Assembly (NCBI RefSeq): GCF_007754155.1
Contig: NZ_CP037423.1
Span: 4,990,865-5,054,864 of the forward strand
Direction: 5' to 3'
DNA from: Stieleria neptunia
Lineage (GTDB): Bacteria > Planctomycetota > Planctomycetia > Pirellulales > Pirellulaceae
DNA length: 64,000 nucleotides
Part shown: one piece after another, positions 38,126-62,086 of the stretch
Numbering within the stretch: the first letter of the stretch is position 1
Layout: every line of letters begins with the position of its first letter
Translations under genes and position numbers: made by a program
Notes under the pieces: model-generated
The model's input: only the letters and a program-made list of their open reading frames with translations
What the model was told of the DNA's origin: nothing
The model's database searches: none

Positions 38126-38136
38126 GAGAACCAAGA

Positions 38137-41546: not shown

Positions 41547-41550
41547 ACGT

Positions 41551-42309: not shown

Positions 42310-42381
42310 GTAAGCGTTCTATCTTCCCATGTTGACGGGAGCGGTAGCGTGGTGGGTTTCTTTCCACTTTTGGAGAAACCC

Positions 42382-42729: not shown

Positions 42730-43088
42730 TCGCAATCTCACCAACGACACGCATTTTCGTCTGCACCGACGCGACCGACATGCGAAAAGGATTCTGCGGT
42801 TTGTCGGGACTCGTCAAAGCACACTTCCAGATCGACCTGTTCTCTGGTCACTTGTTTGTTTTCTTCAATCGCAGGCGTGACTACGTCAAGGTCTTGGCCT
42901 GGGACAAAGACGGTCTTTCTATCTGGTCGAAGCGACTCGAGCGTGGAACCTTTGAGAAGCTGACGCGAAGTTCCGACGGTGACTTGGAGATCGATTCGGC
43001 GGAACTAATCATGATGCTTCGCGGTGTGCAGATCGAAGGAACACAGCGAAGGAAACGCTACTCGATTGACTCAGCCAAAGTGGCGTAG
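42726..43088 (+). CDS. tnpB: IS66 accessory protein TnpB
   Basis: 120 aa starting at a GTG that overlaps the tnpA stop (GTGA). Carries IFVCTDATDMRKGFCGLSGL, LFVFFNRRRDYVKVLAWDKD and GTFEKL, all typical of IS66 Orf2. It ends just before a strong terminator. Confidence 0.9.
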   Translation: MIAISPTTRIFVCTDATDMRKGFCGLSGLVKAHFQIDLFSGHLFVFFNRRRDYVKVLAWDKDGLSIWSKRLERGTFEKLTRSSDGDLEIDSAELIMMLRGVQIEGTQRRKRYSIDSAKVA

Positions 43089-43119
43089 CGGCAAGCGAAA
43101 AGAACTCCAGAAAATTGCA

Positions 43120-43151
43120 AACGCAAGGCAGTCATCTGCCTTGCGTTTTTT
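43120..43151 (+). terminator. Intrinsic terminator between tnpB and tnpC of IS66 no. 2
   Basis: Perfect stem AACGCAAGGCAG-TCAT-CTGCCTTGCGTT followed by T-run. It sits 32 bases after the tnpB stop and 24 bases before tnpC, in the direction of transcription, as in the other IS66 of this window. Confidence 0.85.
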
Positions 43152-43174
43152 ATTGATCGCGCTAAAACAACCGA

Positions 43175-44803
43175 ATGACTGCACCGGAAAATCAAGACGA
43201 ATTGCAGAGCCTAAAACGATTCAATGATGAGTTGGTCGAAACGGTTCAGTCACAACAGAAGACGATCGCACAACTTCGCGAAGAATTGAACCTGTACCGT
43301 CGCAAACTGTTTGGTCAATCCTCCGAGCGGCATGCCGAAGACGATTCGCAGTTGCATCTGTTCGATCTCGGCGAGTCGGTCAATGAAGGCGATGATGACG
43401 AGCAGGATCCGCCGAAGTCTCGCAAGAAGCGACGCCGTAAGAAGAAGTCCGAAAAACTACCGGCTCACTTGAGACGCAAAATCATCGAGGCGGACGTCTC
43501 GTCCAAAGAGCGAATGTGTTCTTGCTGTGGCGAAGAGATGCCCATCATTGGCACGGACATCAGCGAGCGGCTCGATCTGATTCCGGCGGAACTCTTCGTT
43601 TGGGAAATCCGTCGTCATAAGCGTGCCTGTGGCAAGTGCAGAGAGTCGATCACGCAGGTTCCCGCCGGCAGCGAGCCCGGTGGACCGACCACGCCGGTTG
43701 CCGGCAGTGATTATGGCTTCGGCGTTTACACACAAATCATCACCAACAAGTTTGCCGACCATTTGCCACTGTATCGAGGTGAAGATATCTTCGCCCGCGC
43801 AGGCGTGATGATCCCGAGAAACACGCAGTTTGGGATGCTTGTGAACATCGCGGCACTCGTCGCACCGCTGATCGCCTTGATGAAATCGCGAATCGTTTCG
43901 GGCCGCGTACTGGGCGTCGATGACACGTCGGTGCGGCTGCAAGATCCTGCCTTGCCCGGCAAGATGCGAACGGCTCGCTTCTGGCTGTACCGTGGCCGCG
44001 AAGACCATCCGTACAACGTGTTCGACTTTACCGAGAGTCGTGGGCGCGACGGTCCGGCGGGATTCTTGAGGGATTTTCACGGCCACGCGGTGGTCGACGC
44101 TTATGGAGTTCACGAGGGAGTCTACCTGGGGAAACACGATCAGATCTTTGCTGCGTGTTGTAACTGCCACGCGCGGAGGAAATTCGTCGAAGCAAAGCCG
44201 AACGATCCGGTGGCCGCTGCGCGTGCGCTTGCGATGTACCGAGGACTTTATGACGTCGAGGATCGCGCGAAGCGGTGCAGTGCCGAAGAGCGTCTTGAAC
44301 TTCGTCAGCGTGAATCGGCTCCGTTGATGAACCAACTCCATGACTGGTTGATCGAGAAGAGCAGCGATCCGCGAGTGTTGCCCAAGAGTTCGCTTGGCAA
44401 GGCCGTCAGGTACTCGCTGAATCAGTGGGACGAGTTAACGGTGTTTCTAGGCGATGGAGCGATTCCGTTTGACAACAACGAAACGGAGAACGAGCTTCGG
44501 AGCCTGACGATCGGTCGTCAGAACTGGTTGTTCGTCGGCTCCAATCGCGGTGGCGAAGTAGCCGCTGCGATGTACAGCTTGGTATCATCGGCGGCGCGGC
44601 ATCATCTCGATGCTTGGGCTTACGTGGACGATTGCCTTCGCAAGCTTGCCGGTGGCTCGACGGACTACGAAGCGTTGCTTCCGGATGTTTGGCGAGGCCG
44701 CCATCCCGAGAGCATTCGAGTGTATCGTGATGCCGAGCAGGCGTCGCGACGATTGACAACTCAGCAACGCCGCGTGCGTCGGCGCGAAGCCAAGGTGGCG
44801 TGA
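43175..44803 (+). CDS. tnpC: IS66 transposase TnpC
   Basis: 542 aa. Short N-terminal coiled coil, then LYRRKLFGQSSERH, a zinc-finger region (MCSCCGEEM ... ACGKCRESI), and the DDE core: GVDDTSVRLQDPALPG, AVVDAYGVHEGVYLG and DNNETENELRSLTIGRQNWLF, with LLPDVWRGRHPESI at the end. All IS66 landmarks are intact. Its N-terminal coiled coil is much shorter than that of the IS66 at 29.6 kb. The two transposases are clearly different lineages. Confidence 0.92.
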   Translation: MTAPENQDELQSLKRFNDELVETVQSQQKTIAQLREELNLYRRKLFGQSSERHAEDDSQLHLFDLGESVNEGDDDEQDPPKSRKKRRRKKKSEKLPAHLRRKIIEADVSSKERMCSCCGEEMPIIGTDISERLDLIPAELFVWEIRRHKRACGKCRESITQVPAGSEPGGPTTPVAGSDYGFGVYTQIITNKFADHLPLYRGEDIFARAGVMIPRNTQFGMLVNIAALVAPLIALMKSRIVSGRVLGVDDTSVRLQDPALPGKMRTARFWLYRGREDHPYNVFDFTESRGRDGPAGFLRDFHGHAVVDAYGVHEGVYLGKHDQIFAACCNCHARRKFVEAKPNDPVAAARALAMYRGLYDVEDRAKRCSAEERLELRQRESAPLMNQLHDWLIEKSSDPRVLPKSSLGKAVRYSLNQWDELTVFLGDGAIPFDNNETENELRSLTIGRQNWLFVGSNRGGEVAAAMYSLVSSAARHHLDAWAYVDDCLRKLAGGSTDYEALLPDVWRGRHPESIRVYRDAEQASRRLTTQQRRVRRREAKVA

Positions 44804-46367: not shown

Positions 46368-46403
46368 GCGGCAGGATCCGGGCTGGCGCAAACTATAGCA
46401 ATA
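46368..46403 (+). promoter_or_regulatory. 36-bp conserved upstream box, copy 1
   Basis: Blocks GCGGCAGGATC, GGCTGGCGC and AACTATAGCAATA, ungapped to the copies at 52751 and 56175; 30 of 36 positions are invariant across the three. It lies 35 bases before the start chosen for the DUF1592 gene, directly before an earlier in-frame ATG. Probable promoter of a common sigma factor. Confidence 0.6.
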
Positions 46404-46438
46404 TGGATGTTGAATCTGATCAATCTGAGGATAAATCG

Positions 46439-48877
46439 ATGGGTTTAGTGATACGCCGACTCGGATTTCCTTGCGTCCTGCTCACCGTGACGGTCATCGC
46501 TTCCGTGGGGAGAACCAGGGGTGATGAGAACGGTGGGTCGAAGGAATCGATCGATAGCGAATCTGCCGAACAGGATCTCGCACGCCCACCGCTACCGATC
46601 AGCGATTTTCTTGGGCAGCATTGCTTGGACTGTCACAGTGACGATGAGCCGGAGGCTGGCTTGAGCCTGATCGGGCTTCCGTTCGACCTCCGTGAGCCCA
46701 AAGCCTTTGAAAGTTGGCGGCGCGTCTACCAGCGCGTCCGGGATGGAGAGATGCCGCCCGATTCGGACTTAAAAGCAAACGAGACCGACGATTTTTTAAA
46801 CGGTCTCAATCGGCGACTGATGGAATCGGACTCGCGCGACATTGCAGATCGAGGCAGGGTCCGCGGCCGACGTTTGACGCGGACGGAGTACGAACACACG
46901 GTTCACTCGCTACTCGGGATTGATCTTCCGCTGCGAGATCAGCTGCCCGAGGACACAGCGATGCACGGCTTTGAAACCGTCGCCGACGGCCAACAGTTAT
47001 CGCACCACCTATTGGCGCGATACCTGGACGTTGCCGACCGCGCATTGGCGGAAGCATTTGATCGTGCTCTCAAAGGGGACTATACGGACGTTGGGGACTT
47101 CTCACCCAGACTCTTGTCTCAGGGTATTGGGAGACGTAACTACCGAGGCCCCGAGTCTCGAGATGGCGAGAGTATTTCGTGGCCAATCTTCAGGCCCTTC
47201 TTCGGACGTATGCGCTCGATCCGAGTGCCGCATGACGGCTGGTATCGAATCACACTTCGCGATGTGCGCGCAATCAACCCGGCGAAAGGTGGAACTGTCT
47301 GGGGAACCTTGCGATCGGGGGTTGGTGCCTCCGCCCAACCGATTCTCTACAAGGTTGGTATCGTGGAAGCGACCGAGACTCCGCGAGACCTGCACTACGA
47401 AGCATGGATTCGCAAAGGACATCTTTTGGAGCTGACGCCGAACGATCTAACCCTCCGCAAGGCGCCCACCCAGAGCGGGCGCCCCGACACGGCCGCCTAC
47501 CGCAAAAGAAATGAAGAGCAAGGTTTTTCAGGAATCGCGCACCGCGGTATCCTCATGGAGCGCATCTATCCAAATGCCGATCGTGAACAAGTCACGCAGA
47601 ACCTGTTCGGTGATGCCAAGCAGGAACACTGGGAGTCCGATCCGACGGTTGTGCTCAAACGGTTGGTGACTCGCTTTGCATCGAAGGCGTTTCGGCGCCC
47701 CGTCACTTCGGATGAAGTAGCCGACTATCAGCAGATCGGTCTCGACTTACTCTCCGAAAACGAATCGTTCATCGAAGCCCTGCGTGCTTCCTACAGCGCC
47801 GTTCTCTGTTCGCCACGGACGCTGACGTTCGTCGAGTCACCGGGACCACTGGACGACTATGCCATCGCGTCGCGACTCAGCTATGCGTTGTGGACGGATA
47901 TGCCGGACGAGACCCTGATGCGATTAGCCGGCGAAGGAAAGCTCCGGAACACCGAAATTCTTGCGTCGCAAATCGATCGCATGCTTGATGATCCACGCTC
48001 GAAACAGTTCATCAACAGCTTTACCGATCAGTGGTTAAATCTGAACCAAATTGACTTCACAACGCCTGACAGTAGGCAGTTTCGCACGTTCGATCCTGTG
48101 GTTCAGGAGTCAATGCTCCAGGAAACTCGCACCTTCGTCAGCAAGCTCATCGAAGAAGACTTGGGTGTCGCCCACTTCGTCGATTCAGACTTTGCCTGTC
48201 TGAACGAGCGGCTGTTACGGCATTACAGGGTCGCCGATGACGTCGAGGGTTGGAAACCCGGTCGCGGAATCCAGACCGTTTCGCTTTCGCCTGCCAGTCG
48301 ACGTGGCGGCTTGATCACCCAGGGCGCTATCCTGAAAGTGACCGCCGACGGGACCACGACGTCTCCGGTGGTGCGGGGCGTGTTTGTCAATGAGCGGATT
48401 CTTGGCGTTCGGGTTCCACCGCCACCGCCCGGAGTCCCTGCGGTCGAACCGGACGTGCGTGGTGCGACCTCCATCCGCGACCAATTAGCAAAACATCGCG
48501 CTGATGAATCGTGTAATGCTTGCCACCGGACCATTGACCCGCCAGGATTCGCCTTGGAGAGTTTCGATCCGGTCGGAGTGTGGCGCGATCGCTACGGAAT
48601 CGGCGGTAGGGGGGCAGCGGTCGATCCATCGGGAACGACTGCCGACGGAGGCACGTTCGATGGACTTCTGTCATGGCAGCAGCTCTATGTGAACCAACCA
48701 GAGCTAATTGCCCGCGGGTTTGCCGAGCAATTCCTGACCTACGCCACGGGCGCGCCGATTCGCTACAGCGATGAACCAGCCGTCGATCGTATCGTTTCCG
48801 ATTCCAAAGCATCCCAATACGGGATACGGACGTTGATACGCGCCGCGCTGACCAGCGACCCGTTCCTTAAGAAGTGA
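46439..48877 (+). CDS. PSD-type DUF1592/DUF1588/DUF1585 protein with cytochrome-like N-terminus
   Basis: 812 aa from the ATG at 46439, which places a Sec signal (MGLVIRRLGFPCVLLTVTVI) first; an in-frame ATG 12 codons earlier would add an acidic stretch ahead of it. Residues 61-66 (HCLDCH) are a cytochrome-c-like CxxCH at the start of the mature chain. After it come the domains usual in these planctomycete proteins: DUF1587/1592 (RLTRTEYEHTVHSLLGID, YAIASRLSYALWTDMPDE), DUF1588 (RRGGLITQGAILKVTADGTT) and DUF1585 with SCNACHRTIDPPGFALESFD. The family is exported and of unsettled function, usually paired with DUF1552, as here. Confidence 0.88.
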   Translation: MGLVIRRLGFPCVLLTVTVIASVGRTRGDENGGSKESIDSESAEQDLARPPLPISDFLGQHCLDCHSDDEPEAGLSLIGLPFDLREPKAFESWRRVYQRVRDGEMPPDSDLKANETDDFLNGLNRRLMESDSRDIADRGRVRGRRLTRTEYEHTVHSLLGIDLPLRDQLPEDTAMHGFETVADGQQLSHHLLARYLDVADRALAEAFDRALKGDYTDVGDFSPRLLSQGIGRRNYRGPESRDGESISWPIFRPFFGRMRSIRVPHDGWYRITLRDVRAINPAKGGTVWGTLRSGVGASAQPILYKVGIVEATETPRDLHYEAWIRKGHLLELTPNDLTLRKAPTQSGRPDTAAYRKRNEEQGFSGIAHRGILMERIYPNADREQVTQNLFGDAKQEHWESDPTVVLKRLVTRFASKAFRRPVTSDEVADYQQIGLDLLSENESFIEALRASYSAVLCSPRTLTFVESPGPLDDYAIASRLSYALWTDMPDETLMRLAGEGKLRNTEILASQIDRMLDDPRSKQFINSFTDQWLNLNQIDFTTPDSRQFRTFDPVVQESMLQETRTFVSKLIEEDLGVAHFVDSDFACLNERLLRHYRVADDVEGWKPGRGIQTVSLSPASRRGGLITQGAILKVTADGTTTSPVVRGVFVNERILGVRVPPPPPGVPAVEPDVRGATSIRDQLAKHRADESCNACHRTIDPPGFALESFDPVGVWRDRYGIGGRGAAVDPSGTTADGGTFDGLLSWQQLYVNQPELIARGFAEQFLTYATGAPIRYSDEPAVDRIVSDSKASQYGIRTLIRAALTSDPFLKK

Positions 48878-48911
48878 TCCACATACTTCATCCAGCCAAC
48901 GAGAACGAACG

Positions 48912-50153
48912 ATGCCGAAAGACTCATTGAACTTCCGAAACCTGCCGCGACCGAGTGTCTTGTCTCGCCGTACGTTGATACGAGGCGCGGGTGTTTCACT
49001 GTGCTTGCCGATGCTAGACGCCATGAAACCGGCGTTTGCATCGGATTCCGATGGGACGCACGCCAAGCGATTTGTTGGCGTCAGCCTCGCGCTTGGCTTG
49101 CACAACCCCAACCTGGTGCCGGAAACCGACGGCAAGAACTACAAGCCGTCTAAATATCTGGAAGGCTTGGATGATTTGCGAAACGACTTCACCGTCGTCT
49201 CAGGCACTTCGCACCCGGGCGTTTCCGGAGGACACTCTGCCGAGGGCAGCATCTTTTCGGCCTGCCCCAACGCGCGTGGATCGGCATCGCGAAACACGAT
49301 TTCCCTGGACCAGTTGATGGCCAAGCAGCTCGGTGACGAGACACGATTCCCGTCATTGGTCCTCAACACCAGATCTCAAACCAGCCCATCGTATACGCAG
49401 AACGGCTCGATGATTCCGGCTGAGAATAACGCGATGCGTTTATTCACGACGTTGTTTGTGGATGACACGCCAGCTGAGCGTGAGCGACAAGCTGAGCTCA
49501 TTCGGCGCGGTCGCAGCATCATGGATGTGGTCGGAGAAGAGGCGAAGCGACTGCAACGAAAGGTGGGAACTGGCGATCGCGACAAGCTGGATGACTGGTT
49601 CACCAGCGTTCGCGAACTTGAGCAGCGAATGGTTGCCAACGAGGCCTGGACGCACCGCCCAAAGCCTCAAGTTGACATGGAGAAGCCGGAGTCCATCCCC
49701 CGGGACACTGTAGGCGTTGCAGGCATTTTCCTGGACATCATACGCATGGCAATGATGACTGATTCGACGCGATTCGTCACATTGCACGTCCCCGGGGATT
49801 ACCACGGCCTTAGCCATCATGGAATGGATGCTGGTACCATTCAGCGACTCGCGTCGGTTGAGCAAGGGATGATCGAACAATGGGCCCGATTCCTGCGAAC
49901 GCTGAAGTCCAACGGTTTGCTTGATGAGACAATGGTTCTAATGACATCGAATCTCGGAAACGCGTCGAGTCACGACACCAAGAACATGCCGGTTCTGTTT
50001 GCCGGAGGCGGATTCCGACACGGGCAACACTTGGCGTTCGACCAGCAGAACAATTATCCGCTGCCAAATCTCTTCGTGAACGCACTGCAACGGCTGGGAA
50101 TCGAGCACGACTCGTTCGCCACCAGCACCGGAACAATGACGGGCCTTGAATAA
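48912..50153 (+). CDS. DUF1552 protein, Tat-exported
   Basis: 413 aa. Near the start is the Tat-like signal LSRRTLIRGAGVSLCLPML, common in this family. The rest has the DUF1552 hallmarks: SGTSHPGVSGGHSAEG, SLDQLMAKQLG, and HHGMDAGTIQRLASVEQ with conserved His residues of an alkaline-phosphatase/sulfatase-like (DUF1501-related) fold. It follows the DUF1592 gene by 34 bases, and the two are always neighbours in planctomycetes, so they are likely to act together. Confidence 0.88.
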   Translation: MPKDSLNFRNLPRPSVLSRRTLIRGAGVSLCLPMLDAMKPAFASDSDGTHAKRFVGVSLALGLHNPNLVPETDGKNYKPSKYLEGLDDLRNDFTVVSGTSHPGVSGGHSAEGSIFSACPNARGSASRNTISLDQLMAKQLGDETRFPSLVLNTRSQTSPSYTQNGSMIPAENNAMRLFTTLFVDDTPAERERQAELIRRGRSIMDVVGEEAKRLQRKVGTGDRDKLDDWFTSVRELEQRMVANEAWTHRPKPQVDMEKPESIPRDTVGVAGIFLDIIRMAMMTDSTRFVTLHVPGDYHGLSHHGMDAGTIQRLASVEQGMIEQWARFLRTLKSNGLLDETMVLMTSNLGNASSHDTKNMPVLFAGGGFRHGQHLAFDQQNNYPLPNLFVNALQRLGIEHDSFATSTGTMTGLE

Positions 50154-50179
50154 CAGGATTTGAGCAAGCACATTTTTCT

Positions 50180-50242
50180 GTAGCGGAAGTCGTCAAGACT
50201 TTCGGCAACAACCAACGCCGAAACTCTGACGAGTTCCGCTAC
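50180..50242. repeat. Intergenic hairpin repeat
   Basis: Arms GTAGCGGAAGTCGTCA-GACTTTCGGC and the complementary GCCGAAACTCTGACGA-GTTCCGCTAC flank a short loop. It is of planctomycete REP type and may also act as a transcript end between the DUF1552 and 50269 genes. Confidence 0.65.
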
Positions 50243-50268
50243 GCGACAATATCCAAGGACAAGATCAC

Positions 50269-51021
50269 ATGAACAATAGTCTTCTCTTTCTAGCCATGAC
50301 AATCAGTTGCGTGACAGCGGGCAGCTACGCAAAGGCAGACGATTACGTAAAGGGAACGTCACTCCGGGCAACCATGCTCAATAGAGGTGAGGTCATCTTC
50401 GAAAAAAACTTCGATGACCAGAAAGAAGTCGATGCCGTGATGGATCTAAGAAAACACACCAAGGGCACGGTGAAAGATGGGGTCATGGTGACCATTCCCC
50501 CGTCGGTCCATGGAGAGGCACCTAAAGGCGCTCGATACGGAAAAGAAGAGTTTGTCCGATCCCATTTCAAACTCGGCGGGCAGGACTACATTTTTTCTTT
50601 TCGAGTGAAGTTCTTAGAACTGGATAGAGAGGTACGAGAGAAAATCTGTTTTATCGACCTTGGGCATCGCTGGATCCGCTTAGAAATGACACCTGAAGGC
50701 TCCCAACTCGTATTTCAAAACTACATATTGGACAAACGAGGAGGTAGACAAGTGATGGTCGAAGACAAAGCACTAAAGCTCAAATATGGAGAGTGGTACG
50801 AGGGCACCATCGAGATCTCAGGAAACGAAACTCTGTTCAATATCAATGGTGTGGCATTCCATATAAAGGATGACCTGGTTGCAAAGAAAAGAGAAACCGT
50901 CCTTGCCCAAAGATTCTGTCTCGACCTCAGAGGTGTGGGTTATCACCTGGATTACGCGGCAGCCTGGAAGCCAAATGGCTATCAGAGAACCTGGGAAGAA
51001 AAGCGAGCTGAATCGAATTGA
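50269..51021 (+). CDS. Secreted protein of unknown function (DUF1080/LamG-like beta fold?)
   Basis: 250 aa with a Sec signal (MNNSLLFLAMTISCVTAGSYAK). The mature chain is dominated by beta-type segments (EVIFEKNFDD, DGVMVTIPP, DYIFSFRVKFLEL, RWIRLEMT, EWYEGTIEISGNETLFNING), like concanavalin-A-type 3-keto-disaccharide hydrolase or LamG domains. I cannot place it in a family. Direction and spacing suggest it belongs to the same locus as the DUF1592/DUF1552 pair. Confidence 0.65.
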   Translation: MNNSLLFLAMTISCVTAGSYAKADDYVKGTSLRATMLNRGEVIFEKNFDDQKEVDAVMDLRKHTKGTVKDGVMVTIPPSVHGEAPKGARYGKEEFVRSHFKLGGQDYIFSFRVKFLELDREVREKICFIDLGHRWIRLEMTPEGSQLVFQNYILDKRGGRQVMVEDKALKLKYGEWYEGTIEISGNETLFNINGVAFHIKDDLVAKKRETVLAQRFCLDLRGVGYHLDYAAAWKPNGYQRTWEEKRAESN

Positions 51022-51360
51022 TCATGCTTAGTCATCGATGAAGACTGGCTACTCAAGGGATTTCATTCCTAGGCACGCTAGATCTTGCAGAAGGCCGGAT
51101 CGTATATCGCTCGGATGACGTTAGCGATTTTAGTATCGCCCAGCCCGAGGAAGCTAACCGGGGGCCGGGATGGCGCTCACCGGAAATACTTAGTGGTCCG
51201 CCTGACCGGCGACGTCTCGTGGAACCGAGAAAGCCGGCGCCGGCGCTTGAGAGAGAACACTGACGAGCATCCGTTGCGATAATGACCCGTCATGCCGTCG
51301 AGCTCGATCAATAGTGGGCAAGTGGGCAAAATCAACAGCCGGAAAAGAAGACGATCAGCT
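51022..51360. other. Intergenic, no gene seen
   Basis: About 340 bases. No copy of the 36-bp box and no hairpin terminator found. The open frame 5' of the hydrolase continues to 51292 without a signal sequence. Confidence 0.4.
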
Positions 51361-52623
51361 ATGCATTCAAACATGACGCGCCGCCAACTGCTGCAAAAGC
51401 TTACCTTTGCAGCGTCTGTGGGCATGGCATCAAACTTGATGAGCGGAAGGCCCGGCATGGCGGCCGATGAAACGAATGAAGCGGGCGCGTACGCGGAAGG
51501 CCTGCTGCCGTCCGGTGTGCGCTCGCGATTTGTCAACGGCGTCAACGGCCTGCGCATGCATGTGCTTGAAGCCGGTTACGAAGGGCGCAACCGACCCGGC
51601 GTCCTGCTGCTCCACGGCTTTCCGGAGCTGGCCTACAGTTGGCGCAACGTGATGGTGCCGTTAGCAGAGGCGGGATTTCACGTTTTCGCCCCGGATCAGC
51701 GCGGCTACGGTCGCACAACCGGTTGGGATGACGACTATGACGGTGATCTTGCCTCATTTCGGCGCCTGAACATTGTTCGGGATGCTCTCGGATTGGTTTT
51801 CGCACTTGGACATCAGTCGGTTGCGACAGTGGTGGGGCACGACTTCGGCTCGCCGATTGCTGCTTGGTGCGCCGTGATCCGTCCAGATGTATTCCAGTCG
51901 GTCGCACTCATGAGTGCTCCGTTTAGCGGGACTCCATCTCTACCATCTGGCACGGCTAATGATCCAACACAACCAGTGGCATCATCCGGTCCGAGCCTTT
52001 TCGACCAACTGGCGGCGCTACGGCGTCCTCGCAAGCATTACCAGCGATACTACACAACGCGCGGTGCAGACAAAAACATGCGCAATGCTCCGCAAGGTAT
52101 CCATGCGTTCCTGCGCGCCTACTACCACTACAAGAGTGCGGACTGGGCGGGCAACCGGCCCTTCCGACTTGAAGCGCGGACAGCCACTGAGATGGCCAAG
52201 ATGCCTACCTATTACATCATGGACCTGGCAGACGGTATGGCGGAAACTGTGGCCAAGCACATGCCTTCAGCGAAGGAGATTGCGGCGAACAGTTGGCTGC
52301 CAGACGCGGAGCTACGGGTCTACAGCGAGGAGTTTGCGCGCACCGGTTTCCAAGGCGGTCTGAACTGGTATCGGTCTGGCAGTATCGGCGCCGCTGAGCA
52401 GCAGCTCTTCGCCGGTCGCACGATCGACCAGCCGTCGATCTTCATCTCGGGTGCCAGCGACTGGGGCAGCTATCAAAGTCCCGGCGCTCTAGAGAGAATG
52501 CAGGACACTGCCTGTACCGACATGCGCGGTGCATACATGGTTGAGGGTGCTGGGCATTGGGTGCAGCAGGAGCAGCCCGAGCAAACCGGTCGTTTGTTGA
52601 TCGACTTCCTCGGCGCGTTGTAG
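51361..52623 (+). CDS. Exported alpha/beta hydrolase (epoxide hydrolase/dehalogenase-like)
   Basis: 420 aa from the ATG at 51361, or 416 from the ATG at 51373; both put a Tat-like signal TRRQLLQKLTFAASVGMA first. The core shows the oxyanion motif HGFPE (85-89), APDQRGYGRT, and the nucleophile elbow VVGHDFGSP where Asp 161 takes the place of Ser, as in epoxide hydrolases and haloalkane dehalogenases. The catalytic His is probably in GAGHWVQQEQPEQ near the C-terminus. Substrate unknown. No carbohydrate link is evident, so it may be unrelated to its neighbours. Confidence 0.82.
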   Translation: MHSNMTRRQLLQKLTFAASVGMASNLMSGRPGMAADETNEAGAYAEGLLPSGVRSRFVNGVNGLRMHVLEAGYEGRNRPGVLLLHGFPELAYSWRNVMVPLAEAGFHVFAPDQRGYGRTTGWDDDYDGDLASFRRLNIVRDALGLVFALGHQSVATVVGHDFGSPIAAWCAVIRPDVFQSVALMSAPFSGTPSLPSGTANDPTQPVASSGPSLFDQLAALRRPRKHYQRYYTTRGADKNMRNAPQGIHAFLRAYYHYKSADWAGNRPFRLEARTATEMAKMPTYYIMDLADGMAETVAKHMPSAKEIAANSWLPDAELRVYSEEFARTGFQGGLNWYRSGSIGAAEQQLFAGRTIDQPSIFISGASDWGSYQSPGALERMQDTACTDMRGAYMVEGAGHWVQQEQPEQTGRLLIDFLGAL

Positions 52624-52750
52624 CTTGGTTTCACTCCCACGAACGACGAAACTTCCAGCTCCCGACCACCACCAGCAATGGTTGCCGAGCTGCGGCACTT
52701 CGCTCCTTGATCCGGCCTACGAATAGATATTCTCGAACTGCTACAAAGAG

Positions 52751-52786
52751 GCGGCAGGATCTAGGCTGGCGCGAACTATAGCAGTA
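52751..52786 (+). promoter_or_regulatory. 36-bp conserved upstream box, copy 2
   Basis: Blocks GCGGCAGGATC, GGCTGGCGC and AACTATAGCAGTA. It ends 53 bases before the sulfatase start at 52840. Flanking bases show no similarity to the other copies, so only the box is conserved. Confidence 0.6.
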
Positions 52787-52839
52787 GGGATGGACTGATA
52801 AAAGCGTCTCCCATTGATCATCTATCCAAATCCAAACCT

Positions 52840-54414
52840 ATGAACTTGCAAGAACATACGAGACCACTCTTCCAGGCATTCGTCGTAACAGTGGCGTTTC
52901 TTTCATTGGGTGTTGCTGCCGAAGCCGATGACAAACGCCCGAATATCCTGGTCATTCTGACTGATGATCAACGCTACGACGCGATGGGATTCGTGGGCCA
53001 TCCATTTCTCAAGACTCCTCATATCGATCGGATCGCCAGGGAGGGAGCTCATCTGAAGAACGCCTTCGTCACCACTTCGCTTTGCTCGCCCAGCCGGGCG
53101 TCAATTCTGACCGGACTCTATGCTCACAATCACCGGGTAGTCGACAACTACAATCCGATTCCGAAGGGGCTGCGGTACTTTCCCGAGTATCTGCAGGAAG
53201 CCGGTTACGAGACGGCCTTCATCGGAAAGTGGCACATGGGCGGAATGATTGATCACGTTCAGCCGGGCTTCGATCATTGGATCAGCTTCAAAGGACAGGG
53301 CGTGTATTTTGGAGATCTCAATGAAGGCAAGGTGAAAGGACGGTATGTCCCCCAGGTCAATCGGGACGGATTCAATGTCAACGGAAAACGTGTTCCCCAG
53401 AAAGGGTATGTCACCGATATCCTTGACCGGTTTAGCCGCGAGTGGCTCGAGGATCGAAAGGGGGATAAGCCATGGATGCTTTACCTGTCCCACAAAGCGG
53501 TTCATGCCGACTTTCTCCCTGCCAACCGCCATGCCTTCTCCTACCAGGATGCTCCTTTCGAGCGTCCCAAGAGTTGGTTTGAAAGTCCTGAAGAGTTCAC
53601 CGATGTTCCACGATGGGTGCAGCATCAACGGAACAGCCGACACGGCGTCGAATTCGCCTACTACACCAACCTGAACATCGAAACCTATTACAAACGTTAC
53701 TGTGAGACGATCCGGGCGATTGACGAGAGCACCGGTCGAATCATGAGCCTGCTTGAGTCCAGGGGCGAATTGGACAATACCCTTATCATCTATCTGGGAG
53801 ATAACGGCTTTCTGTTCGGTGAACATGGATTGATTGACAAACGCTGCGCGTACGAGGCATCAATCCGGATTCCCATGGTGATGAGATGCCCGAAACAGTT
53901 TGATGGCGGCCAGACCATTGACGACGTGGTGGCCAATATTGACGTGGCGCCGACGCTTCTGGACGCCGCGGGGATCGACAAACCGGAGCACATGGATGGT
54001 GAGTCATTCCTTCCGCTGTTGCAGGGCAAAGATGTCGATTGGAGAGACTACCTGTTGTACGAGTATTACTGGGAGCGGAATTATCCTCAGACACCGACGA
54101 TGCATGCCCTCTGCGGAAAACGATACAAGTACATTCGGTATCACGGAGTCTGGGATATTGATGAGCTGTTCGACCTGGAGAAGGACCCCGGGGAAAAACG
54201 CAACCTGATCAATGATCCGGCGCATCAGGAGTTGATCGCGGAATTGAACACGAAGCTGTTTGAAGCATTGCGGGAGACGAACGGAACTGAAATGCCTATT
54301 CTGCAGGACCGGGGAACCAAGTTTCTCCACCGCAAAGACGCGGGAAGCCGGGGCACTGATTTTCCAAATTGGTTCTACCGGCAGCCTGAGGCTTCATGGC
54401 AACCAAGTCAGTAG
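52840..54414 (+). CDS. Secreted sulfatase (S1 formylglycine type)
   Basis: 524 aa with a hydrophobic signal region (AFVVTVAFLSLGVAAEA). The active-site consensus is CSPSRASILTG with Cys 82. The metal-site DD is near residue 42, GKWHMGG near residue 128, and IIYLGDNGFLFGEHG further on. Architecture and motifs resemble the sulfatase at 15768 rather than the CAPTR type at 62087, suggesting a different substrate from the latter. It is the second unit that carries the 36-bp box. Confidence 0.9.
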   Translation: MNLQEHTRPLFQAFVVTVAFLSLGVAAEADDKRPNILVILTDDQRYDAMGFVGHPFLKTPHIDRIAREGAHLKNAFVTTSLCSPSRASILTGLYAHNHRVVDNYNPIPKGLRYFPEYLQEAGYETAFIGKWHMGGMIDHVQPGFDHWISFKGQGVYFGDLNEGKVKGRYVPQVNRDGFNVNGKRVPQKGYVTDILDRFSREWLEDRKGDKPWMLYLSHKAVHADFLPANRHAFSYQDAPFERPKSWFESPEEFTDVPRWVQHQRNSRHGVEFAYYTNLNIETYYKRYCETIRAIDESTGRIMSLLESRGELDNTLIIYLGDNGFLFGEHGLIDKRCAYEASIRIPMVMRCPKQFDGGQTIDDVVANIDVAPTLLDAAGIDKPEHMDGESFLPLLQGKDVDWRDYLLYEYYWERNYPQTPTMHALCGKRYKYIRYHGVWDIDELFDLEKDPGEKRNLINDPAHQELIAELNTKLFEALRETNGTEMPILQDRGTKFLHRKDAGSRGTDFPNWFYRQPEASWQPSQ

Positions 54415-54485
54415 CCGGCATTGAGCTTCGCGGGACGTGCGTGCAAGGCGATTGCACGCCTCTTGCCCAATAACGGGAGAAGACG

Positions 54486-54962
54486 TCAATCGTGATCTGC
54501 CTTCAACGCGAACAGCCGCAAATACCCGATGCCGCTGCTAACGATGGCCGCCAAGCAAATGAGTGTCATGAGGGTACCGGGAATGAAGTTGACGAATCCT
54601 CCGAGGTCCATGAACAGGAAGTAGCCAACATCCGCTAGTCCAGCGACCAAGGCGGCGAGCAGCATTGCGGGTTTCGATCGGCGCCATACGAAAATGGCAC
54701 AGATCGTCGTTACGGCACCGATCCACAGCAGGTTGAATCCATGTTGGTTGATGACAGCACCAGCCGCATCCGGGTATGCCAGTTTCAATGTTTCTGGATC
54801 GACTGCATCGGCGATTCCGCCAATCGCCTCAGGTGTATCCTGGGTGATTGTCATCACCCCTGCTAGTACATGGACGAGACCCCAGATCACCCACAGCACA
54901 GCTGCCAATCGAAGCAGCCAAACGCTCGTCTTTTCAGGTTTGATGTCGACGTGCCGCTTCAC
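54486..54962 (-). CDS. Four-helix membrane protein
   Basis: 158 aa with hydrophobic segments near 16-37, 74-92, 97-116 and 126-146 (VLWVIWGLVHVLAGVM, LLWIGAVTTICAIFVW, MLLAALVAGLADVGYFLF, GTLMTLICLAAIV). No family is recognised with certainty. The start overlaps the DoxX-like gene's stop as ATGA, so it is coupled and co-expressed with it. Expected regulator: the divergent TetR protein. Confidence 0.7.
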   Translation of the reverse strand: MKRHVDIKPEKTSVWLLRLAAVLWVIWGLVHVLAGVMTITQDTPEAIGGIADAVDPETLKLAYPDAAGAVINQHGFNLLWIGAVTTICAIFVWRRSKPAMLLAALVAGLADVGYFLFMDLGGFVNFIPGTLMTLICLAAIVSSGIGYLRLFALKADHD

Positions 54963-55369
54963 GACTGAGTCTCCGGTGTAAGCGCTACTGGTTCGGCGTG
55001 AAAGTGAAGGCGGCGACTGACTGGTCGCAGTGAGTACGAACCAGCGAGCACAGCGAGAAACACCAAGGGAACGATGACTTCCGGGATCGCATGACGGGCA
55101 AACCCATGCGAAGCTGATGCCCCTAGCAGATCAAAGGTGAAACCCGCGTAGGCCCATTCCTTCAGCAGCGGTGTCTTTGGAATCAACAGTGCAATGACGC
55201 CGAGCACCTTTGCGATTCCCAGAATCGACATCAGGTACACGGGATAACCCAGACCCGACATCGATTCTTGCTGCCCCTCGAAGCGGATCAGGTTCAAAAC
55301 ACCTGCCGCGCCCATCGCCAGGCAAAAGAGCCCCGTTAAGAGCCAGTAGCCGATTAGCTTTCCGTTCAT
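54959..55369 (-). CDS. DoxX-like membrane protein
   Basis: 136 aa from the ATG at 55369 (the frame extends to a TTG). Four helices with the DoxX/DoxD-like features: LLTGLFCLAMGAAGVLNL, LGIAKVLGVIALLIP near residues 56-70 and WAYAGFTFDLLGASASH. DoxX-family proteins are small integral membrane proteins of redox or stress contexts, with poorly known chemistry. First gene of the pair repressed or induced by the TetR protein across the intergenic operator. Confidence 0.8.
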   Translation of the reverse strand: MNGKLIGYWLLTGLFCLAMGAAGVLNLIRFEGQQESMSGLGYPVYLMSILGIAKVLGVIALLIPKTPLLKEWAYAGFTFDLLGASASHGFARHAIPEVIVPLVFLAVLAGSYSLRPVSRRLHFHAEPVALTPETQS

Positions 55370-55436
55370 GAATGCGTCTCCCGCTTGCAAAAGTGGACCG
55401 ATCAGTCAACTGACATTTAGACGAGAGGTTAGCAAT

Positions 55437-55454
55437 CTTGACCGTTTGGTCAAG
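55437..55454. promoter_or_regulatory. Palindromic operator for the TetR regulator
   Basis: CTTGACC-GTTT-GGTCAAG is a perfect 7-bp palindrome with a 4-base spacer, in the middle of the divergent gap (55370-55479). It resembles the known operators of LmrA/YxaF-type TetR proteins (GACC-N4-GGTC). Binding by the 55480 product is inferred. Confidence 0.75.
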
Positions 55455-55479
55455 TCGGGCTAGGATTTCTCGAAACTAG

Positions 55480-56088
55480 ATGGCCAGTGATCGACGAAAC
55501 GCTCCATTCATGAACCGACTCTCACGCGACATTTTTGTCGAACGCACTCGAGAATTGTTGACTCGGCAAGGGTGCACTGACGTTAGCCTGTCTACCGTGC
55601 TCAATGCTTGTGACGCCAACAAAGGCTCCCTTTATCACTTCTTCCCCAAGGGGAAGGATGAGCTGGTCGTTGCGGCGATCCAAAGGCAAGCCGGTTTTGC
55701 AATCAGCATGAATCAGGATTTTCTCACTCGGTCGGACTCCACCGCCGAGGCTGTTTTCCATTGCCTTGAATCACTTGCAAAGAAGATGGCGGCTTCAGAC
55801 TTCAACCTGTGCCTGCCGTTTTCCGCCGTTGGAGCAATCTCAGGGGACGCCAGTGAAGAGCTGCGTTCCGCATGCGCCGATACGCTGGCCAAGTTGGAGT
55901 CACTTTTCGCAGAATCGCTCAAGCGGGAGGGGCTTTCGGCGAAGTTAGCGAAGGAGATCGCTTCTCTGATTGTTTCCACCGTGGAGGGGGCCTTGCTGCA
56001 AGCGAGAACTCGCAAGATAGCCACGCCCCTCAAAGTAGCCGCTACAGCACTGCGAAGTGCGATCGAGTTCCATACATCCGCATCTTAG
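55480..56088 (+). CDS. TetR/AcrR-family repressor (LmrA/YxaF-like)
   Basis: 202 aa; an in-frame ATG at codon 11 (55510) is an alternative start. The N-terminal HTH is clear: IFVERTRELLTRQGCTDVSL followed by NKGSLYHFFPKGKDEL. The C-terminal part is the ligand-binding, dimer-forming helical domain seen in the LmrA/YxaF group. It faces the DoxX-like gene with a perfect palindrome between them, so local autoregulation and control of the membrane pair is likely. The effector is unknown. Confidence 0.85.
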   Translation: MASDRRNAPFMNRLSRDIFVERTRELLTRQGCTDVSLSTVLNACDANKGSLYHFFPKGKDELVVAAIQRQAGFAISMNQDFLTRSDSTAEAVFHCLESLAKKMAASDFNLCLPFSAVGAISGDASEELRSACADTLAKLESLFAESLKREGLSAKLAKEIASLIVSTVEGALLQARTRKIATPLKVAATALRSAIEFHTSAS

Positions 56089-56174
56089 GCAACTTCCGGG
56101 ATTGATCAATTCAAATGAGGTGACGGAAGCTGTCAATTCGCGGCGACACAGGCAAAAAAAACTTTTTAAAACGG

Positions 56175-56210
56175 GCGGCAGAATCTGGGCTGGCGCGAAC
56201 TATAGAAGTA
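56175..56210 (+). promoter_or_regulatory. 36-bp conserved upstream box, copy 3 (before the sigma gene)
   Basis: Blocks GCGGCAGAATC, GGCTGGCGC and AACTATAGAAGTA, with the last base being the A of the sigma ATG. A copy directly before the sigma factor itself is what positive autoregulation would look like. Confidence 0.6.
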
Positions 56211-56767
56211 TGAACCTGGAATCCAACGGCCCCGAACCACAACATTCCGTATCCGAAGCGGATTTTGTGCGTCTGTTCGCTCGGCATGAGCTGGCGTTGC
56301 GGAACTATGCGCGTCTGATGCTGCCCGATTGGAACGGCGTGGATGATGTGCTGCAGGATGCCAGCATCACGATGTGGGAAAACCGGCAGCAGCTTCAGGA
56401 TGAAAGCGGCTTTCTGCCTTGGGGAAAAGTCATCGTTCGTCACAGGTGCTTCAATGCGATCGCAAAGATGCGTCGCGACCGACTGGTCCTCGATAAGAAC
56501 GTCCTCGAATTGATCGCAAGCGAAGAAGAGGCTGAATCCGAGTCTGAAAACCTGGTCAGTATTCAACACTCTTTGGCGGATTGCCTCGGCAAGCTTCCTC
56601 CACAGCGCCGTGAACTAGTACTGGCACCCTATCGCGGGGCAGGCGAAGTGAAAACACTCGCCGAGCAAGCCGGAAAAACGCCCAACTCGCTCTACAAAAT
56701 CATCGGCCGACTTCGTGCAAGACTGTCGCGGTGCGTCGAAGAAAAACTGAGACTGGAGATATCATGA
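56210..56767 (+). CDS. ECF-type sigma factor, planctomycete/verrucomicrobial family
   Basis: 185 aa from the ATG at 56210. Region 2: ADFVRLFARHELALRNYARL, DVLQDASITMWENRQQL, PWGKVIVRHRCFNAIAKMRR. Region 4: LGKLPPQRRELVLAPYRGA, ...LAEQAGKTPNSLYKIIGRLR. This is the Sig-70 family typical of Rhodopirellula and Verrucomicrobia, in which a FecR-like protein follows, as here. It directs RNA polymerase to a specific promoter set, perhaps the 36-bp box. The stop overlaps the FecR-like ATG. Confidence 0.9.
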   Translation: MNLESNGPEPQHSVSEADFVRLFARHELALRNYARLMLPDWNGVDDVLQDASITMWENRQQLQDESGFLPWGKVIVRHRCFNAIAKMRRDRLVLDKNVLELIASEEEAESESENLVSIQHSLADCLGKLPPQRRELVLAPYRGAGEVKTLAEQAGKTPNSLYKIIGRLRARLSRCVEEKLRLEIS

Positions 56768-58206
56768 CCAAGGAAGAGATGAATCCCGAAGAGCGCATCG
56801 ACCAGTACCTACTTGGGCAGGCGACGGCGGAAGACGTCGAAGTTCTGAACGAGCTGCTCGCCAACGATGAGCGACTGCGGAAGCACTATCGCTTCCGAGT
56901 TGCGTTGGAGGGCGGTTATCGAGAGGCTGCGATACGAGGCGAAAGTCTAGTGCCGATGATTGACGTTTCTTCAGCCGAAGCCGAAGCCGAAGCCGAGGCC
57001 AAGCAATCCTCTCGCAAGAGTTTTCTGTACGGTATTGCAGTAGCGGCAGCATCCCTCGCCGCCGTCGCCCTTTTTGCGGTAACGCAGTGGAGTCCCGTTG
57101 ATCGAGAAACGCCATCCTCAATTACCTCCACAGTGGCAGGAATCCCAGTAGCGCGGCTGGTCACTTCGCTTGATGCGAATTGGCGTGACATTGATCCCAC
57201 CCCCGGTGCTTTTCTTGAACAGGGCAGCTTTCGGTTAGATGCCGGAACGGTGGAACTGGAGTTCAACCGAGGCGCCCGAGTCACGCTTCGGGGGCCATCA
57301 AGTTTCGAGCTAAAGAGCACGGACTTGCTGCACGTGTCTTCCGGCAATCTTGTCGCGAGGATTCCAGAGGAAGCGATCGGCTTCACGATCGTGACCGATG
57401 AGGCAGAAGTCGTGGATTTGGGAACGGAGTTTGGGCTTAGGGTTGAAGACGGCGGTCAGACCGAGGTTCATGTCATTGAAGGTCTGGTCGAGATCTTTCC
57501 ACGTGAGGATTCGAGCAATCGTTCCGCAGAGAGTATTCGCATCGAAGAGGGGCAGGCGATTCGATACAAGGTTGGCGATGCCGAAGAAATGGGAACGGAA
57601 AGAATCCCCGTTCGGTCTAGTCGCGGAGTATTGGGAACCACGCAACGGAGTGATCTTGGCCTCACTTTCCTGCAGGGAAATATCCGGTTGAAGGAAATGG
57701 TCTCCGCTGCCGACCTGAAACGTCCAACAAGTTCTTGGATCGAAGTGATTCCCGAGCAAAGCGGTGTTCTGCTCCAGCAAGCGATCCCGGTCACGCTGGT
57801 CGCGCCGGGCAACTATCGTGTCTTCGGTGACTCCGGTCAGGTCATCCCAGCAGGAACGAAAGTCGACAGCTACCTCTTTCATTTCCGTTCGGAACATCCC
57901 TCACCGGTCCAAGGTGTCATCAAGTTTGACCAAGAGATCGTCGGATTGATCTGTGAGGCGGGCCAGCTGGCTGTCAGCGATTCGATTCTCGGACAAGACG
58001 GAATACGGTATCCGGTGGCGAGCAGACAGTATCGCGGCCTGGAGCCGCACATTCGTTCTGAGAAGCTAGACCCAGAAAAGGGCGGAGGCTGGACGGCCGA
58101 TGAAGTGACGGTCTCCCAAGACATGATGACAATTGGCTTGAGCGTCAACGTCAATCCCGGTCTTGGTGTGGATCAATTGAGAGTACTTGTGCGGAGCAAG
58201 GACTAG
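56764..58206 (+). CDS. FecR-like membrane protein, putative anti-sigma/sensor
   Basis: 480 aa. A cytoplasmic N-terminal helical part (ERIDQYLLGQATAEDVEVLN, LRKHYRFRVALEGGYRE, the usual anti-sigma-like zone), an odd EAEAEAEA run near 71-80, one transmembrane helix (86-107) and a periplasmic FecR domain (about 165-260: GTVELEFNRGARVTLRGPSS, VVDLGTEFGLRVEDGG, TEVHVIEGLVEIFPRE). A beta-rich C-terminal domain follows (LLQQAIPVTLVAPGNYRVF). It is coupled to the sigma gene by ATGA. By analogy with FecR it senses a periplasmic signal and controls sigma. No iron or TonB gene is nearby, so the signal is likely to be carbohydrate-related (inference). Confidence 0.82.
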   Translation: MTKEEMNPEERIDQYLLGQATAEDVEVLNELLANDERLRKHYRFRVALEGGYREAAIRGESLVPMIDVSSAEAEAEAEAKQSSRKSFLYGIAVAAASLAAVALFAVTQWSPVDRETPSSITSTVAGIPVARLVTSLDANWRDIDPTPGAFLEQGSFRLDAGTVELEFNRGARVTLRGPSSFELKSTDLLHVSSGNLVARIPEEAIGFTIVTDEAEVVDLGTEFGLRVEDGGQTEVHVIEGLVEIFPREDSSNRSAESIRIEEGQAIRYKVGDAEEMGTERIPVRSSRGVLGTTQRSDLGLTFLQGNIRLKEMVSAADLKRPTSSWIEVIPEQSGVLLQQAIPVTLVAPGNYRVFGDSGQVIPAGTKVDSYLFHFRSEHPSPVQGVIKFDQEIVGLICEAGQLAVSDSILGQDGIRYPVASRQYRGLEPHIRSEKLDPEKGGGWTADEVTVSQDMMTIGLSVNVNPGLGVDQLRVLVRSKD

Positions 58207-58208
58207 TC

Positions 58209-59384
58209 ATGAATGAGCTTCCGCGAAGGGGCTTCCTGCACAGCAGCCTGGCGTTTGGGTGTGGCTTGGCCGCCACGCCATTGCTGAACCCTGCACGCGC
58301 GTCCGAAGTGAAAACGACCCAGGTTGCGCCGAGCGGTTTCTTTACACTTGGTAAGCGCAAAGATCACTGGTGGTTGATTTCACCTCAGGGAGCGCCGTTC
58401 TTCTCGATGGGATTGAACCATATCGATCCAGCGAGTCTGCGCTACCCCGAGAACCTTGGCATTTGGCGTGACAAGTATGGTGGTAGCACGCTGCGGTGGA
58501 TTAAGGAATCTGTCGCACCCAATCTGCAGGCGTGGGGGTTCAACTCCGTCGGTTGGGTGCAGGAGGTAACTGTCAGGCAATGGCGGCATTCGCGAGCCTT
58601 TACCGTCGACGAGTATCGCGCGCTGGACATGCCGTATTGCCATTTGCTTCCTTTCACCGAATCACATCAGTGGGAGCAGCATACGGTTCACTACGATTTC
58701 CGCAGTGAAGACTGGAAGGAATGGGTGGACTACGTGGCGCGCTCGCACTGCGCAGAGCTGGCAGAGGAAAAGAACCTGATCGGCTATTTCTACAGCGACT
58801 GTCCTACATGGATTCACAACCGACCGTACAACCAGTGGCGCGGTCCGATTTTTGATCCTGAACGTCTAAAGACGGAAGCAGGGCGAACAGAACTAAGCGA
58901 TCTGGCAGACGGCTACTACAAGACGATTCATGATGCTATTCGTCGCTACGACAAAAACCACTTGATCTTGGGGGATCGTTACGAGGCAAACGCGCCGATT
59001 GCGATGGAGGTGATCGATGCTGCGAAACCGTATGTCGACGTGTTGTCGTTCCAGGACTTCCGCGATCCTGTGCAGAATCTCGACGAGTGGCACAAGAAGA
59101 CCGGAATGCCTGTGCTGCTGGCCGATGCTGCCAAAATCAAGTGGATGACGAAGCCGGGGGAATTCACTCCCAACGATGGCCGTTGGTACGCGGAAACTCT
59201 GGCGGCCTTGCATCAGAATCCAGGGTGCGTCGGCTTCCATCTGTGTGGGGCGTATCAGCGGAACAAAGGCCGGAGATACGGATTACTCGATGAACAAGAA
59301 AGGCCGGACACAATGAACGTGGATCTGATGAAGGCTGCCAATCAAGAGATCGTTAAGTGGATGGAACAGACTTTTGGAGGGTAG
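58209..59384 (+). CDS. Tat-exported agarase-like glycosidase, tandem copy 1
   Basis: 391 aa starting 2 bases after the FecR stop. Tat-type signal PRRGFLHSSLAFGCGLAATP. The core reads FFTLGKRKDHWWLISPQGAPF, FSMGLNHIDPASLR, APNLQAWGFNSVGWVQEV and later LIGYFYSDCPTWIH, the pattern I know from agarase-like proteins with a TIM-barrel (GH50/GH42-like). The Asp/Glu in YSDCP and VLLADAAK could be catalytic, but I cannot assign a GH family with certainty. The next gene is a close duplicate. Confidence 0.75.
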   Translation: MNELPRRGFLHSSLAFGCGLAATPLLNPARASEVKTTQVAPSGFFTLGKRKDHWWLISPQGAPFFSMGLNHIDPASLRYPENLGIWRDKYGGSTLRWIKESVAPNLQAWGFNSVGWVQEVTVRQWRHSRAFTVDEYRALDMPYCHLLPFTESHQWEQHTVHYDFRSEDWKEWVDYVARSHCAELAEEKNLIGYFYSDCPTWIHNRPYNQWRGPIFDPERLKTEAGRTELSDLADGYYKTIHDAIRRYDKNHLILGDRYEANAPIAMEVIDAAKPYVDVLSFQDFRDPVQNLDEWHKKTGMPVLLADAAKIKWMTKPGEFTPNDGRWYAETLAALHQNPGCVGFHLCGAYQRNKGRRYGLLDEQERPDTMNVDLMKAANQEIVKWMEQTFGG

Positions 59385-59388
59385 TCGA

Positions 59389-60564
59389 ATGATGCCGACC
59401 TACAATCGAAGGATTCTCCTGCGCGGCGGCTTGGCACTGGGATGTGGTTTGGCCACAGAGCCATTGCTCGATCCTGCATGCGCGTCCGAAGTAAAAACGA
59501 GTCAGGTAGAAGCGAGTGGTTTCTTTACGCTTGGTAAGCGCGGCGATCACTGGTGGTTGATAACACCCGATGGCAAGCCGTTCTTCACAATGGGGTTGAA
59601 CCACATTGATCCTGCGAGTCTTCGGTACCCTGAGAATCTCGACATCTGGCGCGAAAAGTACGGCGGCAGTACGCTTCGATGGATCCAGGAATCTGTCGCG
59701 CCCAACCTGAAGGCGTGGGGCTTCAACACAGTCGGCTGGGTGCAGGAAGTCACCGTCCCGAAGTGGCAGCATTCGCGTGCGTTCACGGTGGACGAGTACC
59801 GAGCGCTGGACATGCCGTATTGTCATTTGCTTCCTTTCACCGAATCCCATCAATGGGAGAAGCATACCGTCCACTACGACTTCCGCAGTGAAGACTGGAA
59901 GGAGTGGGTCGACTACGTGGCACGGTCTCATTGCGCGGAACTGGCCGAAGAACGTAATCTCATCGGTTACTTCTACAGCGATTGCCCGACGTGGACTCAC
60001 GATAGACCCGACAACAAATGGCGAGGTCCAATTTTTGACCCCGAGCGATTGGAGACAGAAGCTGGGCGAAGAGAACTGAGCGAACTGGCAACGAGCTACT
60101 ACAAGACCACGCACGACGCCATCCGTCGCTACGACAAGCACCATTTGCTGCTGGGCGATCGCTACGAAGCCAACGCGCCGATCGCCATGGAAGTTGTGAA
60201 TGCGGCGAAGCCGTTTATCGACGTGTTGTCGTTCCAGGACTTCAGAAACCCGATTAAACACCTGGACGAGTGGCACAAGAAAACGGGCATTCCTGTATTG
60301 CTCGCCGACGCCGCCGGTCTGGGCGGGCGCAGTAACGGGGATTTTAAACCGAACAACGGGGCGTGGTACTCGAAGACGCTGTCAGCGCTTCACGGGAACG
60401 CGGGTTGCATTGGCTTCCATCTTTGCGGGGCCTATCAACGCAACAAGGCTCGCCGACGTGGACTCCTCGACGAAATGGAAAAGCCCGATGCGCAACACGT
60501 CGATCAAATGAGGGCTGCGAATGAACGGGTCACCCAGAAGATGGCCCAGATGTTTCAAGACTAA
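59389..60564 (+). CDS. Tat-exported agarase-like glycosidase, tandem copy 2
   Basis: 391 aa from the ATG at 59389, 4 bases after the previous stop. Protein length is the same as copy 1 and long blocks are identical (SHQWE-HTVHYDFRSEDWKE, RSHCAELAEE, NLIGYFYSDCPTW, YEANAPIAMEV), so this is a tandem duplication. The differences cluster in the last third (ADAAGLGGRSNGDFKPNNG versus ADAAKIKWMTKPGEFTPNDG) and in the signal (YNRRILLRGGLALGC). Substrate range may differ between the copies. Confidence 0.75.
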   Translation: MMPTYNRRILLRGGLALGCGLATEPLLDPACASEVKTSQVEASGFFTLGKRGDHWWLITPDGKPFFTMGLNHIDPASLRYPENLDIWREKYGGSTLRWIQESVAPNLKAWGFNTVGWVQEVTVPKWQHSRAFTVDEYRALDMPYCHLLPFTESHQWEKHTVHYDFRSEDWKEWVDYVARSHCAELAEERNLIGYFYSDCPTWTHDRPDNKWRGPIFDPERLETEAGRRELSELATSYYKTTHDAIRRYDKHHLLLGDRYEANAPIAMEVVNAAKPFIDVLSFQDFRNPIKHLDEWHKKTGIPVLLADAAGLGGRSNGDFKPNNGAWYSKTLSALHGNAGCIGFHLCGAYQRNKARRRGLLDEMEKPDAQHVDQMRAANERVTQKMAQMFQD

Positions 60565-62042: not shown

Positions 62043-62086
62043 TTTGCAAAGCCCTCGGCCGTGCCTTGCACAGACCAAGCCATGTC

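Follow-up and report, generated by a model that had tools for sequence, protein, structure and literature searches.

A 36-bp box that stands before three gene units in a 64,000-bp stretch of the Stieleria neptunia genome (the window) is probably a leaderless promoter used by the ECF sigma factor whose gene spans 56210-56767. Through it, this factor would regulate its own operon and two further units, one copy having been acquired as a cassette. Planctomycetes encode ECF sigma factors by the dozen, along with numerous sulfatase and PSCyt/PSD genes, the control of which is largely unknown. If our reading is true, the promoter code (a GGCAG −35 element paired with the sigma4 helix, a clade-specific −10 element, and the ATG at +1) makes regulons predictable from genomes, and a regulon gains a gene simply by copying the promoter together with its start codon.

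Three box copies and the genes behind them

The copies lie on the plus strand at 46368-46403, 52751-52786 and 56175-56210. Re-alignment confirmed the initial annotation: they align without gaps and are invariant in 30 of 36 columns, the variable ones being 8, 12, 13, 23, 32 and 34. We searched the window and the genome with a 31-bp core pattern (46368-46398, 52751-52781 and 56175-56205), allowing up to three mismatches. The core matched three times in the window versus 0 in 100 dinucleotide shuffles, and three times in the whole 10,975,817-bp genome, each before one of the units described below, with no match for a reversed-pattern control. In copies 1 and 3 the core ends 4 nt short of an ATG, and column 36 is the A of that ATG (46403 and 56210). 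Copy 2 has no ATG at +1; it reads AGG at the corresponding triplet, and the ATG of the sulfatase gene follows only at 52840.

Domain scans and similarity searches bore out the downstream genes as first described, all on the plus strand. Behind copy 1 lie genes for a PSCyt1/DUF1587/1595/1592/1588/1585 protein (46403-48877; here the DUF1592 gene), a DUF1552 (HXXSHH) protein identified by domain scan (48912-50153), and a 250-aa protein with no Pfam match (50269-51021), whose orthologs stand beside DUF1552 in two relatives (G033 and G067). Copy 2 precedes a sulfatase gene (52840-54414). Copy 3 precedes the sigma gene (56210-56767), whose product scores 145.3 bits against TIGR02989 (Sig-70_gvs1; curated cut-off, 124.55). 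It overlaps the gene for a FecR-domain protein, presumed to be the anti-sigma factor (56731-58206; 29.8 bits, cut-off 24), whose start at 56731 falls inside it. Three genes for enzymes follow (58209-59384, E 6e-10; 59374-60564, E 2.2e-07; 60585-62042, E 2e-12). Their products have no Pfam match and resemble solved beta-agarases over short stretches, the first two distantly. The last operon gene in the window encodes a second sulfatase (62066-63895), 86% identical to its Thalassoglobus neptunius ortholog. These genes might serve to break down a sulfated polysaccharide, a guess based on the sulfatase families and the distant beta-agarase similarity. Just 5' of the box region, 38101-44803 holds a TrwC-type relaxase gene, a coupling-protein-like gene and an IS66 transposase gene, hinting at an integrated mobile element.

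Distribution of the box and constraint on its DNA

A search of relatives placed the box with a close sigma ortholog or with its decayed start. The pattern, at up to three mismatches, was found in 6 of 241 family genomes (G000, G033, G067, G196, G002 and G259). The first four, and no others in the family, have a sigma ortholog of at least 79% identity, the next best reaching 54%. The reversed-pattern control matched three of the 241 genomes, once each, so three-mismatch matches are at chance level; that in G259, with three mismatches in a coding-like sequence, was judged to be chance. G002 has no sigma match at 79% or above. There, on the minus strand of L215 (9128-10054), the box and the first 32 sigma codons run in frame into a truncated agarase-like frame. 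This looks like the relic of a decayed sigma locus, or possibly an assembly error. We rejected it as a working promoter capture by the agarase-like gene, since the fused frame is cut short.

Class-wide, 3 of 397 genomes matched, as against five for the control; these were the genome of the window itself, G553 (two boxes, both exact) and G540 (three mismatches). The G553 boxes are 8497 bp apart, the same spacing as that of the two boxes in T. neptunius (L068). In all five named loci whose sigma factors are 79 to 82% identical to that of the window, the box lies 5' of the sigma ATG (L067, L069, L070 and L071 were taken as the same as G196, G067, G033 and G388, respectively). Thus, barring chance-level matches, the box is confined to genomes that have one particular ECF sigma factor (a TIGR02989 member accompanied by a FecR-type protein) or its remnant. 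Rhodopirellula europaea belongs to the Pirellulales and T. neptunius to the Planctomycetales, which makes a transfer between orders likely.

Altogether, the clade of the window's sigma factor yielded 13 box sites, before six sigma genes, five DUF1592 genes (in the window, G033, T. neptunius and twice in G067), one sulfatase gene (in the window) and the G002 relic; 12 of the 13 boxes end 4 nt short of an ATG. The patchy occurrence across orders and the relaxase and IS66 genes on the 5' side of the box region would suit a mobile repeat, which we nevertheless consider extremely improbable: the genome holds three copies, all 13 sites precede the genes just listed or the relic, and we found no dispersed copies with defined ends.

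Box conservation reflects selection on the DNA. An alignment of six sigma orthologs, including one nearly identical pair, shows no change in 24 of the 31 box columns, whereas the figure is 21 of 60 for four-fold sites of the gene and 5 of 40 for columns upstream. With all 13 sites, the box has 21 invariant columns of 31, and 25 columns vary in no more than one site. One might instead read the box as coding, with GRIRAGANY ahead of the Met, since the frame is open through 12 of the 13 boxes and the annotation of some database proteins runs across the box. This we hold to be hardly credible, because third codon positions are no freer than the others (7, 6 and 7 of 11 invariant for the three positions) and an in-frame stop occurs in copy 2 and, by eye, in L049.

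Promoter geometry in the sigma clade

With the ATG at +1, GCGGCAG occupies −35 to −29 and AACTATAG occupies −12 to −5. We compared the upstream regions of 30 distinct clade sigma genes, gathered by similarity to that of the window, and found that the clade shares GGCAG, a TA-rich −10 element and a fixed distance to the ATG. GGCAG lies 33 nt upstream of the ATG in 18 of the 30 and 34 to 36 nt in 7, in otherwise different sequence; the remaining five, forming one subclade (G087, G090, G092, G094 and G095), have the motif and no usable ATG at +1. Even at 40 to 54% identity to the window's factor, GGCAG and the TA-rich element recur at near-constant spacing while the intervening sequence differs. 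Between subclades the −10 element varies and GGCAG stays constant. We therefore take GCGGCAG as the putative −35 element, its GGCAG common to the clade, and AACTATAG as the putative clade-specific −10 element. Since both are fixed relative to the ATG, the start codon sits at the expected transcription start, which argues for a leaderless promoter. Transcription would begin at the A of the ATG or within a few nucleotides of it, giving a leaderless sigma mRNA. The elements of the classical ECF promoter, AAC at −35 and CGT at −10, were absent, GGCAG and an ACTATAG-like element being found in their place. In the wide sense, an autoregulated ECF promoter is present: a −35/−10 pair matched to the sigma clade precedes both the sigma gene and the targets.

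The −35 element goes with the protein. Among TIGR02989 proteins carrying the sigma4 motif N[AS][LF]YK..[GA]R[LI]R, 26 of 26 have GGCAG within 130 nt upstream, versus 13 of 80 without the motif; for GGCAG 31 to 38 nt before an in-frame ATG the counts are 22 of 26 and 3 of 80. The motif was written after viewing the same alignment, and 23 of the 26 positives belong to one clade, with L102, L120 and L184 outside it. The test used 127 proteins (the best 100 among the matches listed for 60 genomes, some rows skipped, plus targeted proteins), of which 106 remained after reduction to less than 90% identity. We rejected a GGCAG element for TIGR02989 sigma factors at large, as other subclades show different upstream motifs, and counting words in 100 unaligned loci yielded only weak signals (GGCAGGT in 8 of the 100, 0.9 expected). 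By eye, a CGGATAAGTA-like motif lies upstream of the sigma gene in L108, L127, L159, L171, L180 and L183, and TGTCAC...GACATGGTA in L113, L148, L150 and L182. Such motifs of other subclades are candidates for further promoter classes.

Could another sigma factor, such as the housekeeping one, use a box that is simply carried along with the locus? AACTATAG is TATA-like and start-codon geometry by itself names no sigma factor. We nonetheless consider this improbable: the −35 element correlates with the sigma4 helix that the downstream gene encodes, the −10 element shifts between subclades while GGCAG is kept, and there are only three copies in 10.98 Mb.

The spacer, GGCTGGCGC, is conserved in all 13 sites beyond the needs of a −35/−10 promoter and, by eye, mirrors the −35 element at 6 of 7 positions. 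The initial annotation had allowed for an activator site or an RNA leader. In the first case, the imperfect dyad GCGGCAG-N8-CTGGCGC (arms matching 6/7, by eye) would also be bound by a dimeric regulator, e.g., the neighbouring TetR protein, whose gene (55480-56088) lies immediately 5' of the sigma gene. Such an operator would explain the conserved spacer, and Bythopirellula has a C-terminal fragment of a similar TetR protein upstream of its sigma gene. We rate this combination of promoter and operator as unlikely: beyond that fragment, no other searched locus gave a TetR match, including 8 to 10 kb 5' of the sigma gene in R. europaea and T. neptunius, the right arm of the dyad is missing in sister clades, and the window's TetR gene has a palindrome of its own. 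That palindrome, CTTGACCGTTTGGTCAAG at 55437-55454, lies between the TetR gene and a facing DoxX gene and, judged by eye, is likely a TetR operator. No conserved regulator for the spacer was found in the loci searched. An RNA leader or structured element, with the box itself transcribed, could draw on the length and strictness of the box and on its imperfect inverted repeat. It fares still worse and appears very unlikely, because sister clades lack the possible right arm of a hairpin and keep the ATG distance fixed, 12 of the 13 boxes are followed by the ATG after 4 nt, and an Rfam search gave no match at the box.

The leaderless sigma promoter, which we prefer, has points against it as well: its elements are not AAC/CGT, the spacer is conserved, copy 2 lacks an ATG at +1, and the DUF1592 gene could also start at another ATG, with a Shine-Dalgarno-like GAGGA before it.

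Targets of the promoter and comparison with known systems

The 5' end of the DUF1592 gene aligns with that of a sigma gene. The segment 46258-46429 (+; 172 bp, pairwise alignment) is homologous to the sigma gene of G033 over about 110 nt upstream, the box, the ATG and codons 1 to 9, and the alignment stops after codon 9; its upstream part scores 70 versus a shuffled maximum of 13.5. This upholds the suggestion that the first gene's 5' end came from a sigma gene and contradicts the view that the box alone, not a longer duplication, is shared: the flanking sequences of the three window copies do not resemble one another, but those of copy 1 align with the G033 sigma region. By this alignment, promoter, start codon and N-terminal tag (MDVESDQSE) of the DUF1592 gene all derive from a sigma gene. 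Since a leaderless promoter without its start codon would be of no use, this copy would have come as a cassette of sigma upstream region, box, ATG and nine codons, the last leaving the tag.

A second in-frame ATG lies at 46439, 7 nt after a Shine-Dalgarno-like GAGGA (by eye), and judging from the sequence both 46403 and 46439 can serve as the gene start in the window. A translated box and a tag like MDxESDQ were found in five of 38 DUF1592 homolog starts (P0004, P0005, P0008, P0010 and P0013), these being gene-caller starts, which the tag may precede. P0012 and P0021 start with an MDxESDQ-like tag, P0007 less clearly; P0003, P0006, P0009, P0011, P0014 and P0017 start at a signal-peptide-like stretch, and other close homologs are partial. 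None of six named verrucomicrobial rows (P0019 and P0022 to P0026) has such a tag. In P0008, P0010 and P0021 the inner Met is lost and the frame kept, which suggests that the tagged start is used, with a GTG start possible in P0008 and P0010.

DUF1592 orthologs, in the loci where they were found, are either preceded by a box or part of the sigma operon. The Bythopirellula ortholog (83% identical) is within the operon, without the tag by eye and without a box at up to five mismatches; no ortholog was found in 19 kb of the R. europaea 6C locus. The DUF1592 gene is probably controlled by the neighbouring sigma factor. When 19 clade loci were scanned with each sigma factor's own −35/−10 pair, 30 matches were obtained, 19 being the templates and 11 others. 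The background was 4.7 per shifted spacing, and six of the 11 were at that level. The other five fell one per locus in all five loci of the G087/G090/G092/G094/G095 subclade, before a facing gene for a 1042- to 1058-aa protein; these putative promoters keep the −35 and −10 elements of the sigma gene with an unrelated spacer, and the one product that was domain-scanned is of the PSCyt1-PSCyt2-PSD1 type. A general test for recurrence of the sigma promoter nearby gave a weak signal, 8 of 112 loci scoring 15/15 versus 3 of 222 swapped pairs. Three of the eight are of the GGCAG subclade and the others are L105, L120, L133, L172 and L188; the L120 match has no clear gene downstream. Motifs of other TIGR02989 subclades recur in L105 (11194), before a 926-aa frame that is PSCyt1-type cytochrome-like by eye, and in L161 (11139), before a 334-aa frame.

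Co-occurrence, clade-wide geometry and the placement of DUF1592 orthologs support the self-controlled sigma regulon proposed at the outset. In the mechanism we envisage, the FecR-type protein would release the sigma factor, which may then activate its own operon (FecR, agarase-like enzymes and sulfatase) as well as the DUF1592-DUF1552 unit and the sulfatase behind copy 2. For this planctomycete sigma clade in general, we are evenly divided on whether the start codon is fixed in a leaderless promoter and regulons grow by copying promoter-ATG cassettes that leave tags.

An autoregulated ECF promoter is of a known kind; the box variant appears to be new. The literature we searched, a scope outside which the main ECF classification papers fell, contained no description of the box promoter. 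As PMC8103513 has it, the original ECF definition included an AAC (−35)/CGT (−10) promoter. The present locus resembles the autoregulated ECF sigma/anti-sigma operons described there in its membrane-type FecR partner and in a promoter before its own gene and a few targets, and differs in the lack of AAC/CGT, the ATG at the expected +1 and the clade-conserved spacer. For Rhodopirellula baltica, the ECF factor RB10049 was suggested to regulate an adjacent PSD1/PSC2-domain protein (Studholme et al. 2004, cited in PMC2754498). That account likewise links an ECF factor to a PSCyt/PSD-type gene; in our case a shared promoter is seen, and the target in the window is of the DUF1592 type. Finally, in the survey of PMC5397173, which covered one planctomycete, Planctomycetes are among the low-Shine-Dalgarno phyla, suggesting leaderless mRNA and/or use of RPS1. 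As in the leaderless mRNAs considered there, promoter signals stand immediately before the start codon; unlike that statistical survey, our analysis concerns one sigma clade with a fixed geometry and a copied cassette.
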